From NCBI RefSeq assembly GCF_000153105.1, contig NZ_CH672376.1:1984855-2048854 (forward strand): DNA of 64,000 nt, read 5' to 3'. The position numbers and the translations under genes are program-made. Origin of the DNA: Blastopirellula marina DSM 3645. GTDB lineage: Bacteria > Planctomycetota > Planctomycetia > Pirellulales > Pirellulaceae. Under the pieces are notes generated by a model, which was not told the origin of the DNA, ran no database searches, and saw only the letters and a list, made by a program, of their open reading frames with translations. Position 1 is the first letter of the stretch. The number at the start of each line of letters is the position of its first letter. This document shows positions 39,946-45,468 of this stretch, piece by piece.

Positions 39946-40038
39946 AGGGGGGCTCTCTTGAAGAGTTCGACACAAATCACCCCTTCCATCCTATCGAAGC
40001 GGCAAAAAGAGGGCCAGCCGAGCAACCGCCGCAGCGTC

Positions 40039-40044
40039 TATAAT
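40039..40044 (+). promoter_or_regulatory. Candidate -10 box (TATAAT)
   Basis: Perfect TATAAT 38 bp before the start of the regulator gene at 40083. No clear -35 is seen at 16-18 bp spacing, so this is a weak call resting on position and exact match only. Confidence 0.35.
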
Positions 40045-40082: not shown

Positions 40083-41447
40083 ATGGCGCGACCACGTACC
40101 CGACCTGCCAGCTTGTTGGCCCAAATCTTGAACGATCATGCGTATCCGGCGTACGCGATCGATCAAAATCAGCAGTTGGCGTACTTGAACGACGCTTGTC
40201 GACGCGCGCTGGGCGATGCCGCCGACGAGCTGTTGGGAATGAAATGTCGGTACCATGCGGCGGGACAGCTGCCGCCGCGGCAGCAACAAGCGGCCGATCT
40301 GGCGCCGCCGCCGGATGTTTTTGCCGGGCTGCGGATGGAAGTTCCTCTTACGTTGCCCACAGGCGATGGCCATAGCAGCGCTTACAGCGTGCAATTCTCT
40401 CCGCTCCAGTGCGACGGGGGCGCTTTTGGCGCACTGGCGATCTGTTATCCGCAAGTCGGAGCAGGGGAGGGGACCCAAGCCGATCAACGGCATGATCAAC
40501 TGCGGGTTTGGCGGCGCAGTTGGCGCAAGCGATTCGCCACGAGTCGTTTGATCGGTGAGAGTGAGTCGATTAGCCGAGTGCGTCGTCAAATTGCCTTGTC
40601 TTCGACAACGCGGCTGCCGGTGGTGATTTTTGGTCCCGCCGGCAGCGGACGAGAGCATGCCGCGCGGACCGTCTGCTATGCGCTGCATGGAGAGGGGAGC
40701 GGCCCGGTGATCTCGATTCGCGGCGAATTAATGGACGCCGAGTTGATTCAAAGCGCCGTGCGCTCGTTCGTGCGGCGCTGTAAAGAAGCGGATGACGCTT
40801 CGAATGCGTCGTTGATCTTGTTGGACGCCGATCAATTGCCAGGAGACGCGCAGTCCGAACTCTTTCATCTGCTGCGATTGATCGACATGGACCTGCGGAT
40901 CGTATCGACCGCGCGGCAGTCGCTGTTGGAAGTGGCCGAGCATGGAAAATTTCGAGAGGATTTGGCTTTTCAGTTGTCGACGATCGAAATCGCGCTGCCC
41001 CCGCTGTGTGATCGCCCTGAGGATATCCCGCTGTTGTCGCAGGCATTGATCGAACAACACAATCTCGAAGGCGCTAAACAATTGCGTGGCCTGACCGAAC
41101 ATGCGGCCGATGTGCTGCTCGACTACGATTGGCCTGGCAATATTGACGAACTCGCGGCGGTGATCGCCGAAGCGGCGGCGGCGACCGACTCGGTCTGGGT
41201 CGATGCCGAGCATTTGCCGAAAAAGATTCGCCATGCCCGCGACGCGAAGCGGTTTGCGGCCAAGCCGGCCGAACCCATCCAATTGGACGCCTTTTTGGCG
41301 CAGGTCGAAGAAGAGTTGATTCGCCGTGCCCTGGAACAGACAAAAGGGAACAAATCGAAGGCGGCCGAGCTGCTTAGCGTCTCCCGAGCACGGTTGCATC
41401 GTCGGCTCGAAGCTTCGGAATCGGACTCGGAGCCGAGCGACGGCTAG
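40083..41447 (+). CDS. Degenerate NtrC-like (PAS-AAA-Fis) regulator
   Basis: 454 aa: PAS-like domain (about 10-125), AAA+ domain (about 155-385) and a Fis-type helix-turn-helix (about 400-445, KGNKSKAAELLSVSRARLHRRL). The AAA core has lost nearly all key features of sigma-54 activators: Walker A is GPAGSGREHA (184-193; Arg replaces Lys), Walker B is LILLDADQLP (Ala for the catalytic Glu), no GAFTGA loop is present, and the sensor II WPGNVREL is WPGNIDEL with Asp355 replacing Arg. It is therefore unlikely to hydrolyse ATP or contact sigma-54, and may act as a DNA-binding repressor or scaffold (inference). Followed by a receiver-like gene and an Mrp ATPase. Confidence 0.85.
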   Translation: MARPRTRPASLLAQILNDHAYPAYAIDQNQQLAYLNDACRRALGDAADELLGMKCRYHAAGQLPPRQQQAADLAPPPDVFAGLRMEVPLTLPTGDGHSSAYSVQFSPLQCDGGAFGALAICYPQVGAGEGTQADQRHDQLRVWRRSWRKRFATSRLIGESESISRVRRQIALSSTTRLPVVIFGPAGSGREHAARTVCYALHGEGSGPVISIRGELMDAELIQSAVRSFVRRCKEADDASNASLILLDADQLPGDAQSELFHLLRLIDMDLRIVSTARQSLLEVAEHGKFREDLAFQLSTIEIALPPLCDRPEDIPLLSQALIEQHNLEGAKQLRGLTEHAADVLLDYDWPGNIDELAAVIAEAAAATDSVWVDAEHLPKKIRHARDAKRFAAKPAEPIQLDAFLAQVEEELIRRALEQTKGNKSKAAELLSVSRARLHRRLEASESDSEPSDG

Positions 41448-41504
41448 AATTGCGTCCGGTTGTCATCCTATTCTCTCGAACTTACCATAATTTCCAGTAG
41501 TTGA

Positions 41505-41954
41505 ATGGCGCCACGATCGATATGCGTGTTACACGAGACCGACGGCCGCTGGGCGGTCGCTTTGAAAGCGGCGGCTGGCGATTTGCCGATTCGGGAGACG
41601 CGTAGTCTCGAGCGTTGGCTCCCTCAATTTCGGGCGAGCCCCGCTTCAATATTAGCGATTGCGGCGCCCCGTGGTTGCGACGCTGTCCGATTTGCACGCT
41701 TGCTGGAAGCGTCCGCTCAATTGCAGCGCAAGTTTCCTGACATGTGTTTGGTGGTGCTGTTGGCCGAAGAGGATCGCAGTTTGGCGACCACCGCTTACGA
41801 GGCAGGCGCCGCTTGGGTGCAGATCGGGCGCTGGCGTCTCGACCCCCTGATTCGCTTGGTGCGACGTCGCCAGGCACAATTTCCTGATCTCGCTGCGGAA
41901 ACGCCGATCGATTCGATCTGGCGATCGCTTCCGTGGAGAGAACATCCCGAATAG
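41505..41954 (+). CDS. Receiver-like protein lacking the phosphoacceptor Asp
   Basis: 149 aa, not a named family. The strand/helix order looks like a CheY-type fold: ICVLHE (strand 1), ILAIAAP (strand 3, where the phospho-Asp would be), MCLVVLLAEED (strand 4), TTAYEAGAAWVQIG (helix 4 and strand 5), PLIRLVRRR (helix 5). No Asp sits at the end of strand 3, so phosphorylation is unlikely. It begins 57 bp after the NtrC-like gene and ends 24 bp before the Mrp gene, so all three may be one operon. Confidence 0.6.
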   Translation: MAPRSICVLHETDGRWAVALKAAAGDLPIRETRSLERWLPQFRASPASILAIAAPRGCDAVRFARLLEASAQLQRKFPDMCLVVLLAEEDRSLATTAYEAGAAWVQIGRWRLDPLIRLVRRRQAQFPDLAAETPIDSIWRSLPWREHPE

Positions 41955-41978: not shown

Positions 41979-43061
41979 ATGTCCGATTCGCAGCCGCAAG
42001 TTCCTGACGTGATTCGCGTTCTTGATAAGTTGGCCGATCCTTTCTCGGGTCGCCCCGTGACGAAGACGGACCAGGTGAAAGAGATTGATCTGCTGAACGG
42101 CGACCTGTCGTTTACGTTAGAGCTGACGACGCACTCGGCGCCGTTGTGGGAAGAAACGAAGCAGAAGGCGATCGACTTGCTGAAAGCCGAGTTGCCGCAG
42201 CTGAAAGAGATTCGCGTCAATCTGGCCGAACATACGCGCAAGATCGAAGCGATCGGCCAGGTCGGACTGACCGTGCGCAGCGTGATCGCCGTCGGGTCAG
42301 GGAAGGGGGGCGTGGGAAAGAGCACGATCGCCGCGAGTCTCGCGTTCTCGTTAAAGAATGCCGGCGCCAAGGTCGGCTTGTTAGACGCCGACGTCTATGG
42401 TCCCAGCGTGCCGCACTTGTTGGGATTAAGCGGACGGCCAGAACTGATCGCCGAAAAGAAGATTGCTCCGCTCGAGCGCGACGGCGTCAAAGTGATGTCG
42501 ATGGGATTTCTGGTCGAACCAGAACGAGCCGTCATCTGGCGCGGCCCGATGTTGCACGGCGCGATCACCCAATTCTTGCGCGACACCGCATGGGGCGAAC
42601 TCGACTATCTGATCATCGACATGCCGCCGGGGACCGGCGACATTGCGTTGACGCTCAGTCAGTTGTTGCCGCTAACCGGCGCCGTGGTCGTTTGCACGCC
42701 GCAAGATGTGGCGCTGCTGGATGCGGTCAAAGCGATCGCGATGTTCAAGACCGTGAAGATTCCGGTTTTGGGCGTGGTCGAAAACATGAGCGGTTTCATT
42801 TGTCCTGACACCGGCAAAGAGTGGGATATCTTTGGCAAAGGGGGCGCAAAGAAGAAGGCGGACGAAATGAACGTGCCGTTTTTAGGAGACGTGCCGATCA
42901 CCATCTCGATCCGCGAAAAGGGAGACCAAGGCGCAGCGCCGCAAGTGGTTCAAGATGAGCAAACGGCCCCTTATTTTCAGGCGATTTGCCAAAACCTGGT
43001 GCGCGGCTTGGCGGAAAATGCCGCCGCCAACCCGCCGATGCCGACCTTAACGGTGCTGTAA
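41979..43061 (+). CDS. Mrp/ApbC/NBP35-family P-loop ATPase
   Basis: 360 aa. N-terminal MIP18/DUF59-like domain (residues 1-90) and a MinD/Mrp-type P-loop domain with deviant Walker A GSGKGGVGKST (106-116), DADVYGPSVP and VIDMPPGTGD-like IIDMPPGTGD. The C-terminal CxxC that bridges an Fe-S cluster in many members is not intact: only Cys275 remains, in FICPDTGKEW. Proteins of this family load or transfer 4Fe-4S clusters; without the CxxC pair the cluster-carrying mode may differ. Ends with a rho-independent terminator. Confidence 0.93.
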   Translation: MSDSQPQVPDVIRVLDKLADPFSGRPVTKTDQVKEIDLLNGDLSFTLELTTHSAPLWEETKQKAIDLLKAELPQLKEIRVNLAEHTRKIEAIGQVGLTVRSVIAVGSGKGGVGKSTIAASLAFSLKNAGAKVGLLDADVYGPSVPHLLGLSGRPELIAEKKIAPLERDGVKVMSMGFLVEPERAVIWRGPMLHGAITQFLRDTAWGELDYLIIDMPPGTGDIALTLSQLLPLTGAVVVCTPQDVALLDAVKAIAMFKTVKIPVLGVVENMSGFICPDTGKEWDIFGKGGAKKKADEMNVPFLGDVPITISIREKGDQGAAPQVVQDEQTAPYFQAICQNLVRGLAENAAANPPMPTLTVL

Positions 43062-43155: not shown

Positions 43156-43413
43156 CTAGGCGGTTTTCTTCGCAGTCTTCTTCTTCGCAACTTTCTTCTT
43201 CTTCACGGTCTTCTTCGGCGAAGCCTTTTTGGCGACCTTTTTGGTAGCCTTCTTGGCGACCTTCTTTTTGACAGGCGCCTTTTTGGTCGACTTCTTAGCG
43301 ACCTTCTTTACGGCCTTCTTGGCGACCTTCTTTTTGGTTGCCTTTTTCGGCGAAGCCTTTTTGGCGACCTTCTTGGCGGTCTTCTTCTTTGCAACTTTTT
43401 TCTTAGTGGCCAC
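43156..43413 (-). CDS. Lysine/alanine-rich histone H1-like DNA-binding protein
   Basis: 85 aa, about half Lys, built from degenerate KKVAKKxxxKK units and containing only A, K, P, S, T and V after the first residue. This is the composition of histone H1/Hc1-like nucleoid proteins found in several planctomycetes, chlamydiae and bordetellae. Start is the GTG at 43413, with GGAGG 7 bp upstream; the open frame extends 59 codons further left but without Lys enrichment or a ribosome site. Probably binds DNA non-specifically and contributes to the condensed planctomycete nucleoid (inference). Lies after the Mrp gene, convergent. Confidence 0.85.
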   Translation of the reverse strand: MATKKKVAKKKTAKKVAKKASPKKATKKKVAKKAVKKVAKKSTKKAPVKKKVAKKATKKVAKKASPKKTVKKKKVAKKKTAKKTA

Positions 43414-43799
43414 GATACGTCCTCCGTTCGTTAGCGCCGCCGACGTGATTCGCTCATGCAACTTCCTACCATGGAAGAATGCCCAATGAACAAAAGCGCC
43501 GGCAACAAAACAATAATTCCTACGAAGCGTTCTCGTCGCCGTGCAGCTAAGTGAATCGCTTCGCTCTAGCAATTGGCCCCTGCTAGACAAAGTTGTTTTA
43601 AGTTGTACGCATAATCGGATTTATTGCAACACGTTTTCCACACAATTTGTAGCGTGATGAACAGAACGTGCAACTTTTTACATCGCGAGCAGCGCGCAAC
43701 AACGATGTGCGAAGAGACGCGCGGCGCATGTTGCGGCAACCAACAATAGCGCGAGCGCGCGATAGCGCAGCGCTGTTTCATCTTGCGCTGGCGCATCGT
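43414..43799. other. 386-bp intergenic region with GCGC-rich segment
   Basis: No gene accepted. The left part (43570-43660) is AT-rich and likely holds the promoter of the H1-like gene, which reads leftward. The right part (43680-43795) is dense in GCGC and CGCG dinucleotide alternations, unusual relative to neighbours. No terminator was recognised for the SGNH gene that ends at 43800. Confidence 0.5.
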
Positions 43800-44603
43800 T
43801 CAATAAAGAGAAACGACGCTGCCGCCGGCAAGGTGAATCGATGGTTGCGGACGCTGTTGTTTGCGTCCCATGATCCAACGTTCATGCGGCGTAATTACTT
43901 GATAGTAAAGGGAGTTCCGCACTTTCGGTTGCGCTGTCACGTTGTGTGAATTCGCGCTCAGGTAACTGCGCCAAGCCGCTTGCGCATGACTTGATCGCAA
44001 GTGAATTGGATCGACTCCATACCAACTTGAATGCGGCTCAATAAACGTTGCGCCGCACGTCGCCGCTTCGTCGCGCAGTCGTTGATCAACCTCCTCAGCG
44101 CGCTGCAACGTGGTCCTCAAATCCATGCGGCTGCGCGGGATCAGGAAAGTGCGAAAAAAATAAAACGCAGAGGCGTTTAATCGCCGAACGCGCGCAAGAG
44201 GCAAGCCGACGAGCGTGATCTTGGCGTTCAAACTGCATAATCGCGCCAGACATTCACTCACCCACGTGATGATCGTTTCTACGTTGCGACCATACAGAAT
44301 GTCGTTGCCGATGTCGGTCACGACGGCGGTGGTCGCTTGCGGTGGTTGCGCTTGGGCCGCGTTCCAAAGTTCGCACTGTAAGATGCTGGGCAAGCGTCGC
44401 ATTGCGAAGTAACTGGTCGATCCAAAAGATCTTCCGCGTCCGCCTGCGATCAGCATGTTCATGCGCGGCCCAAAGGATTGATCGGCCAGACGAATGACCG
44501 ATCCCAATGACTGCGCGACGTTGCTCGCGCCAAGTACGATGCAGCGTTGTGAAGTTGGATCAACAGTCGGAGAGACCGGTGCGCTACCAGGGACGTCCGC
44601 CAA
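43800..44603 (-). CDS. SGNH-hydrolase-like protein
   Basis: 267 aa. Block I is IVLGASNVA (GDSN-like with Ser27 as candidate nucleophile), a TDIGNDILYG segment resembles block III (GxND), and DPIHL gives the DxxH block V. A GRGRSFG segment supplies the block II Gly. It therefore reads as an SGNH esterase/acetylhydrolase, although the catalytic Ser context is Ala-Ser instead of Asp-Ser. No signal peptide. Its start overlaps the M50 protease stop by about 20 bp, so the two are coupled. Confidence 0.7.
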   Translation of the reverse strand: MADVPGSAPVSPTVDPTSQRCIVLGASNVAQSLGSVIRLADQSFGPRMNMLIAGGRGRSFGSTSYFAMRRLPSILQCELWNAAQAQPPQATTAVVTDIGNDILYGRNVETIITWVSECLARLCSLNAKITLVGLPLARVRRLNASAFYFFRTFLIPRSRMDLRTTLQRAEEVDQRLRDEAATCGATFIEPHSSWYGVDPIHLRSSHAQAAWRSYLSANSHNVTAQPKVRNSLYYQVITPHERWIMGRKQQRPQPSIHLAGGSVVSLY

Positions 44604-45390
44604 AGGAATTCCCTCCGGAGAGTTGTTGGTAGTTACCCATCGCCAACAGAGCGAACATGATCACCAGAAACGAATCGCCGAAATTCGCGCCGAACAAGAT
44701 CACCAGTCCCGCGAAGGCCATCGATGCATAGAGCGAGTATTGCAGGCCGTTCACGCGATTGAACCAGAGAAATAGTTCGCGTGCGATCTGTCCACCGTCA
44801 AGCGGATAAACCGGCAGCAAATTTAAAACGCCCCAACCGATATTGATGAACAAAATGATCCAAACTAAGGCGCGAATTGCATGGGTGCCCGCCCCCAGGA
44901 CTTCGTTGCCTGGTCGAAGCAGTTCTAGCGCCAACGGCGGCCGCCCAGAGAGATAGCCTGCTCCCACAAGAATGAGAAAGGTGAGTCCCGCGAAACAAAA
45001 GCCAGCCAATGGTCCGGCGATGGAGATCGTAATTCGCGCCCAGGTCGAATTGCCGGCGCGTCGATACGATGCGCCATGCGGTGAGAAGCCAGGGTCATAG
45101 CTCGCCAACCCGCCAAAATGATAAAGCGTGATTTGCGGCGAGAAGCCATACCAGCGCATGAACATGGCGTGCCCCAACTCATGGATCAAGATCGATAAAA
45201 AGATGACCGCAATCGCAATGACCACGACGCGCGGATCCGACGTGCCGACATCCCCCCGACTGAACGCTTGCCCAAACTGATAGCCGAGTAAGAACGCCGT
45301 GATCCAGAAATAGACGCTGATCCGGACAGGAATGCCGAAGGCGGAAAACTGGATATCGTAGCTGGTTGGTTGAGGAGCAGAGAGATTCAC
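44584..45390 (-). CDS. M50-type site-2 metalloprotease
   Basis: 268 aa membrane protease. The zinc motif HELGH (His70 to His74) lies in a membrane helix, and LPVYPLDGG supplies the third ligand Asp. About five further hydrophobic helices are visible. Site-2 proteases cleave membrane-embedded substrates such as anti-sigma factors. Start is the GTG at 45390 with AGGA 6 bp upstream; a TTG at 45429 is an alternative but lacks a ribosome site. Followed by the SGNH-like gene on the same strand. No PDZ or CBS domain is present. Confidence 0.87.
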   Translation of the reverse strand: MNLSAPQPTSYDIQFSAFGIPVRISVYFWITAFLLGYQFGQAFSRGDVGTSDPRVVVIAIAVIFLSILIHELGHAMFMRWYGFSPQITLYHFGGLASYDPGFSPHGASYRRAGNSTWARITISIAGPLAGFCFAGLTFLILVGAGYLSGRPPLALELLRPGNEVLGAGTHAIRALVWIILFINIGWGVLNLLPVYPLDGGQIARELFLWFNRVNGLQYSLYASMAFAGLVILFGANFGDSFLVIMFALLAMGNYQQLSGGNSFGGRPW

Positions 45391-45468
45391 GTCGTATCCT
45401 GAGAGAAAGCAAAGCGAGTTGTCGACCAAATTCTAGCACGAAGCGCGGTTGGACTCGATCCGAAACGA

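Follow-up and report, generated by a model that had tools for sequence, protein, structure and literature searches.

The window, by which we mean the whole stretch of 64,000 nucleotides from Blastopirellula marina DSM 3645 that was analysed, carries three consecutive genes on its plus strand that are treated together here: a regulator (REG) with PAS-like, NtrC-type AAA+ and Fis-type helix-turn-helix (HTH) parts, a small predicted pseudo-receiver protein (REC), and the Mrp gene (mrp). Their features and those of their surroundings are as follows, in window coordinates.

39992..40022, plus strand: block upstream of REG, a possible operator, conserved across four congeneric species.
40039..40044, plus strand: TATAAT, a −10-like element of REG, conserved across the same four species.
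40083..41447, plus strand: REG, a regulator with PAS, degenerate NtrC-type AAA+ and Fis-type HTH parts (ORF, Pfam, AlphaFold2).
40140..40451, plus strand: PAS-like domain of REG, aa 20-123 (strands and helices of the model; PAS_4 E 0.0018, below the cut-off).
40542..41006, plus strand: AAA+ core of REG, aa 154-308 (dN/dS 0.018-0.065 against three congeners).
40632..40655, plus strand: Walker A of REG, GPAGSGRE, with Arg190 in place of Lys.
40809..40826, plus strand: Walker B strand of REG, SLILLD, with Leu247 at the Asp position and Asp248 at the Glu position.
41145..41147, plus strand: sensor II of REG (WPGNIDEL), Asp355 in place of Arg.
41280..41417, plus strand: Fis-type HTH of REG, aa 400-445, conserved (HTH_8 E 8.5e-12; conserved columns).
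41460..41488, plus strand: TTGTCA-N17-TACCAT, promoter-like, before REC-mrp, conserved across four congeneric species.
41505..41954, plus strand: REC, predicted pseudo-receiver protein, 149 aa with the stop (AlphaFold2, Foldseek/VIA, profile).
41661..41663, plus strand: Ala53 codon of REC, at the phospho-acceptor position (Glu in 22/33 aligned homologues).
41928..41936, plus strand: C-terminal LPW tail of REC (Pro in 30/33 and Trp in 26/33 aligned homologues).
41979..43061, plus strand: Mrp, with FeS_assembly_P and a NUBPL/ParA P-loop (Pfam).
42801..42812, plus strand: CPDT in Mrp where CXXC is expected, the second Cys missing.
43800..44603, minus strand: SGNH-like hydrolase gene (named by eye), in the neighbourhood in 16/54 loci.
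44584..45429, minus strand: M50-like protease gene (named by eye), in the neighbourhood in 27/54 loci.

REG (454 aa in the ORF call, stop included) is matched in Pfam by Sigma54_activ_2 (E 3.6e-17), AAA_lid_14 (4.3e-19) and HTH_8, and was modelled with AlphaFold2 from an alignment of 22 sequences (mean pLDDT 88.1, pTM 0.60). Its PAS fold is read mainly from this model, which has PAS-like strands, PAS_4 being below threshold in the Pfam scan. Within this part a signature, C-x-Y-H ... L-C-P-P-P-E (aa 52-80, positions 40236-40322), is common among Pirellulales; its second Cys is replaced by Ala in the genus of the window.

Comparison with solved activators (ZraR, FleQ and others) confirmed what an earlier sequence-only reading had claimed of most of the protein, namely Arg in Walker A, no GAFTGA loop, Asp in sensor II and a retained Fis HTH, and the model bears out its remark that a PAS part remains. 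That reading had also put Ala in place of the Glu of Walker B. The motif is indeed broken, with other residues at the key positions: Asp248 stands at Glu, Leu247 at Asp, and Ala249 comes next, a register on which phmmer alignments to solved activators, MAFFT and the model strand 243-247 agree.

The bEBP feature of an NtrC-type AAA+ domain with lid and a Fis HTH is present in REG by Pfam, by PDB sequence matches and by fold matches; it lacks the Lys of the bEBP Walker A and the Asp-Glu pair of Walker B (Arg190, Leu247-Asp248). Because the features that define the class failed when tested, we do not file REG as a sigma-54-dependent bEBP; its architecture is that of the GAFTGA-less bEBP-like regulators, the bEBP build without GAFTGA. 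The altered motifs suggest that REG has lost both ATPase and sigma-54 activity. Canonical sigma-54 control appears to coexist with it, since the host genome has sigma-54 and 13 other strong PF00158 proteins.

Homologues were compared in 92 rows, made up of 55 from Pirellulales (genomes of the same order), 15 from other orders (same class, different order) and 22 from genome contigs; the rows are non-independent (L152 is the same as L036), and L134 is partial. For the motif counts the wrong-frame controls L089 and L090 were excluded, and L076 and L082 were reassigned to the controls. The losses proved to be widely shared. The Walker B Asp-Glu pair is found in 0 of the 92 rows versus 12 of 13 canonical controls, and a GAFTGA-like loop, searched for by regular expression, in 0 versus 11 of 13; what the sequence-only reading had said would imply local decay, intact motifs in homologues that share the gene order, was looked for, and no row has the Asp-Glu pair. 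Walker A is more variable: its Lys is retained in 4/55 Pirellulales, 9/15 other-order and 7/22 genome-contig rows, and Lys or Arg is present in 38/55, 13/15 and 21/22, respectively. Most rows keep the Walker A glycines, and the motif is entirely gone in several Pirellulales homologues (L062, L078 and L080, for example). Sensor II Arg is retained in 2/55, 4/15 and 0/22 rows of the same three sets, and Arg311 of REG is invariant among homologues. ATP binding may persist in the family, to judge from the mostly kept glycines and from the Lys in 9/15 other-order rows. Members of families f23 to f25, read by eye, have the degenerate form too.

A degenerate regulator of the REG family was also read in L172, from a metagenome bin titled Candidatus Kuenenia, which is outside the class by its title and may be mixed. 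Restriction of REG to the class was dropped as a claim on account of this reading.

In a quick maximum-likelihood tree a single branch (SH-aLRT 100) divides the 90 regulators included from the 33 canonical activators. As the regulators of other orders sit closer to the canonical side, GAFTGA and Walker B were probably lost first, and Walker A and sensor II afterwards. Within the genus, dN/dS of REG is 0.060-0.094 (six pairs). Taken by domain, for the window against three congeners, it is 0.018, 0.055 and 0.065 for the AAA+ core, 0.033, 0.062 and 0.107 for the lid, 0.118, 0.054 and 0.063 for the HTH, and 0.137, 0.108 and 0.162 for PAS; the AAA+ core is therefore constrained about as strongly as the HTH and more strongly than PAS. 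The losses of REG are not chance events: they recur in homologues that are under purifying selection.

The gene after REG, said by the sequence-only reading to be CheY-like without an acceptor Asp, is likewise predicted to have a receiver-type alpha/beta fold (AlphaFold2, pLDDT 86.1, nine sequences), with Ala53 at the acceptor position. Among its VIA matches the TadZ receiver ranks first, at Z 14.3 (117 residues aligned, rmsd 2.6), in a tie with the Thermotoga response regulator 2qxy at Z 13.8, and Foldseek also groups REC with receivers. The profile made from 33 members hits both the receiver of NtrC (E 2.9e-5) and a TadZ chain (E 3.9e-4). The Pfam scan of the same 33 gave weak, single matches only, TadZ_N among them in one member (E 0.049). 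We do not claim REC as a TadZ member, since the VIA Z values are tied. On its predicted fold and its profile, REC is best described as a pseudo-receiver that fits no Pfam family.

At the acceptor position the genus of the window has Ala, and Asp is found in 5 of 21 further rows, all five from other orders. Glu11 is the sole remnant of the acidic pair, and residues 107-110 read IGRW, without the usual Lys. Glu11, Trp16 and Gly101 hardly vary. Pirellulales often have the Leu-Pro-Trp tail (by its Trp), which is less frequent in the further rows (9/21).

Mrp is the sole strong PF10609 match of the genome and has the deviant Walker A, SGKGGVGKST. In 60 Pirellulales rows both Cys of the CXXC are present in 31, one in 26 and none in three. 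The pair is missing from each of the 12 other-order rows sampled, while the rest of Mrp is conserved. In MrpORP the CXXC binds the Fe-S cluster and, in the available text of that study, is described as indispensable in vivo (PMC6345978). Relatives without REC show the same loss of CXXC, and for this reason we dropped it as a hallmark of the REG-REC system and left it out of the definition of the module. Just past mrp, at 43156-43590 on the minus strand, lies a repetitive ORF rich in Lys and Ala, similar by eye to histone H1-like tails.

REG lies less than 1 kb before mrp, on the same strand, in 35 of 54 fetched Pirellulales loci, and the order is rearranged in two more. It is beside mrp in none of the 15 fetched loci of other orders, so that the link between REG and Mrp is indirect. 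REC is immediately 5′ of mrp in 56 of the 65 genomes that have REG and in which mrp was located (47/53 Pirellulales, 9/12 others). Relative to a count of 55 in 66 loci, this one uses a wider overlap limit, which brings in L079 and L265, and leaves out L246, which duplicates L063. Among the remaining nine genomes, REC is right behind REG in G050, G041 and G030, alone in G021, G025, G115 and G221, and unrecognised in G014 and G082; in G014 an ORF between REG and mrp, by eye maybe a diverged REC, was scored as missing. Acceptance was by clear score or position in G050, G041, G030 and G021, and by weak score together with inspection by eye in G025 (3e-8), G115 (8e-12) and G221 (4e-8).

REC is also directly behind REG in G020, where mrp was not located, and right after it in G062, G067 and G189 of family f23 (four genomes tested), which have mrp elsewhere and without REC; in G133 of this family REC is separate from both REG and mrp. 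Overall, seven genomes have REG followed by REC with mrp elsewhere or not found. None of the 15 genomes outside the class that have an Mrp match has REC beside the Mrp gene. REC is the hub, paired with mrp or with REG, and it is at least as tightly linked to mrp as to REG, which goes beyond the correct remark of the sequence-only reading that the Mrp gene comes next.

Presence and absence tell of the other link. Of 71 genomes with REG, REC was recognised in 68; among 20 genomes of the same class without REG it was clear in one (G112) and borderline in two (G081 at 7e-4, G103 by eye). The search of these 20 was genome-wide, with at most 96 candidates scored per genome; weak-scoring candidates, here as in the genomes with REG, were judged by eye. 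'Without REG' means no match at 1e-60 to the REG query, or merely a weak one; of the four genomes with such a weak match (G078, G112, G174 and G199), the first three were read and proved canonical. There were 24 genomes without REG in all, and the four left out of the search (G098, G113, G123 and G126) have no REC beside mrp. From families f23 to f25, five of six genomes were counted, G133 through a split match (9.5e-15) and G064 at 2e-6. A match at 1e-8 in G044 was discarded by eye as a canonical receiver, and the other best matches read in genomes lacking REG were canonical receivers or segments of longer proteins.

Fisher tests of REC against REG give p = 2e-15, 5e-14 or 1e-12 when one, two or three of the 20 are counted as having REC, values that overstate the association because the genomes are related and were picked by hand, not at random, and hence are not independent. 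Joint absence of the two recurs in members of families f3, f7, f8, f9 and f22. Against a complete link stand G014, G082 and G063, with REG and no recognised REC, and G112, with REC only. Of the two roles that the sequence-only reading had suggested for a repurposed REG, repressor or partner of the receiver-like protein, the second is supported by this shared presence and absence and from the REG-REC pairs that occur without mrp.

The promoter-like elements 5′ of REG and of REC, both conserved in the genus, suggest sigma-70-type transcription and expression of REC-mrp separately from REG as well. A search for operators turned up the palindrome TGACA-N6-TGTCA, without mismatch, in four of the 68 regions upstream of REG (L052, L056, L157, L158) versus a shuffled mean of 0.01, and did not find it upstream of REG in the window. 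With one mismatch permitted, GC-rich palindromes occur in more REG upstream regions (9 vs 6), and the whole genome has five TGACA-N6-TGTCA sites versus about six expected by chance (backward control, one). The palindrome is a possible REG operator in other Pirellulales, and a weak lead.

The reading that we prefer, and hold tentatively at a little under an even chance, is that REG is a sigma-54-independent, non-hydrolysing DNA-binding regulator with REC acting in trans and Mrp as a likely nucleotide-dependent partner, in the manner of FleQ and FleN. REG would have descended from a sigma-54 activator, ATP hydrolysis and remodelling of the sigma-54 polymerase having gone and the AAA+ fold having been kept as a scaffold through which the protein oligomerises and passes on signals. 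It would bind DNA through the Fis HTH, at ordinary sigma-70-type promoters. REC, which in the genus of the window has at the usual position a residue that should be unable to take phosphate, would supply the receiver module of REG in trans and would also bind Mrp, a MinD/ParA-like ATPase. The nucleotide (or Fe-S) state of Mrp could then be read via REC and REG as altered promoter occupancy, Mrp supplying the energy-dependent switch lost from the AAA+ domain of REG, by analogy with the action of FleN on FleQ. We think it rather doubtful that the three form a single module in which each part, lacking the signature of its own family (the AAA+ ATPase motifs in REG, the acceptor Asp in REC, the full CXXC in Mrp), has been rebuilt into a split switch of the FleQ-FleN kind, running from the Mrp cycle through a pseudo-receiver to a dead-ATPase factor.

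Somewhat unlikely, in our estimate, is that the genes have separate functions, with REG independent of sigma-54 and answering its own PAS domain, REC serving as an adaptor of Mrp for Fe-S delivery or positioning, and REG merely sharing their neighbourhood in Pirellulales. REC-mrp being the most frequent pair and having its own conserved promoter-like element within the genus would suit such a division, as would the position of REG away from mrp in the 15 other-order loci and the synteny of the M50-like and SGNH-like genes; the placement of REC directly behind REG where mrp is elsewhere would not, nor would the near limitation of REC to genomes with REG. The same two syntenic neighbours mean that synteny alone may lie behind the proximity of REG, REC and mrp, an explanation opposed by the fact that REC stays paired with REG or mrp where the three-gene order is lost.

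It is distinctly improbable that REG binds ATP without hydrolysing it, like NtrC of Rhodobacter capsulatus, using the pocket as a ligand sensor, with REC and Mrp secondary. The largely kept Walker A glycines, the frequency of Lys or Arg beside them, the invariant Arg311 and the intact fold of the model speak for such a pocket, against which stand the Pirellulales homologues without any Walker A and the 53 of 55 rows in which sensor II is other than Arg. Pseudogene-like local decay would account for several missing catalytic motifs in one gene, and is ruled out, as highly improbable, by the same losses across many genera in open frames that form one group against the sampled canonical activators and, within the genus, are under purifying selection (dN/dS 0.06-0.09), so that the repurposing proposed by the sequence-only reading is well supported.

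Planctomycetes have an unusual cell biology, and few of their regulators are understood. The conserved pair described here points to an undescribed multi-protein switch and not to a decaying gene and, as REG is present in most of the class members sampled, the degenerate regulator is probably part of basic planctomycete physiology. A literature search, with subscription papers and some preprints outside its scope, found no paper on a REG-type regulator or on REC-mrp or REG-REC. By the available text of a 2025 sigma-54 survey, only GAFTGA-bearing proteins were retained (PMC12316311), and proteins like REG would therefore drop out there. The family also offers a natural series, with Asp, Glu or Ala at the acceptor position and graded loss of AAA+ motifs, of how a phospho-signalling ATPase turns into a scaffold and of how pseudo-receivers get switched; the latter is called a mystery in the accessible part of a 2025 review (PMC12632262). 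If the Mrp link is true, a known Fe-S carrier gains a regulatory role.

Several known systems share parts of this arrangement. In TadZ/CpaE a pseudo-receiver is coupled, by fusion, to a ParA/MinD-family ATPase. REC and Mrp resemble that combination, and the TadZ receiver heads the fold matches of REC, in a tie; here, however, the two are encoded by neighbouring genes, the ATPase being Mrp with its FeS_assembly_P domain. With the Desulfovibrio ORP operons (MrpORP) there is in common an Mrp in a cluster tied to sigma-54 regulation, whereas those operons have a functional sigma-54 promoter and keep the CXXC intact, with no pseudo-receiver mentioned in the available portion of the report (PMC6345978).

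Like NtrC of Caulobacter and R. capsulatus, and like VpsR, a sigma-54-independent bEBP that is among its fold matches, REG has an NtrC-type AAA+ domain and a Fis HTH and no GAFTGA. By the accessible text of one study, the Caulobacter GAFTGA-less NtrC acts on sigma-70 promoters and depends on the Lys of Walker A and the Asp of Walker B, and R. capsulatus NtrC needs ATP binding, not hydrolysis (PMC10274813). By analogy with GAFTGA-less NtrC and VpsR, sigma-70 promoters would be expected for REG. These known regulators have a fused receiver, whereas REG has PAS instead, with Walker A, Walker B and sensor II all broken.

FleQ-FleN of Pseudomonas has in common with the genes described here a pseudo-receiver, an NtrC-type AAA+/HTH protein and a SIMIBI (MinD-like) ATPase, and the FleQ AAA+ domain is among both the sequence and the fold matches of REG. 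As far as the available parts of the sources go, the MinD-like ATPase FleN controls FleQ, whose receiver is atypical (PMC10723142, PMC12632262); FleN binds the AAA+ domain of FleQ, a stable complex requires the receiver domain, and the pair controls both sigma-54 and sigma-70 promoters (PMC10723142). In FleQ, however, the receiver is fused and the AAA+ domain hydrolyses ATP, whereas here the receiver has a gene of its own, the AAA+ domain is dead by its motifs, and the ATPase is Mrp.
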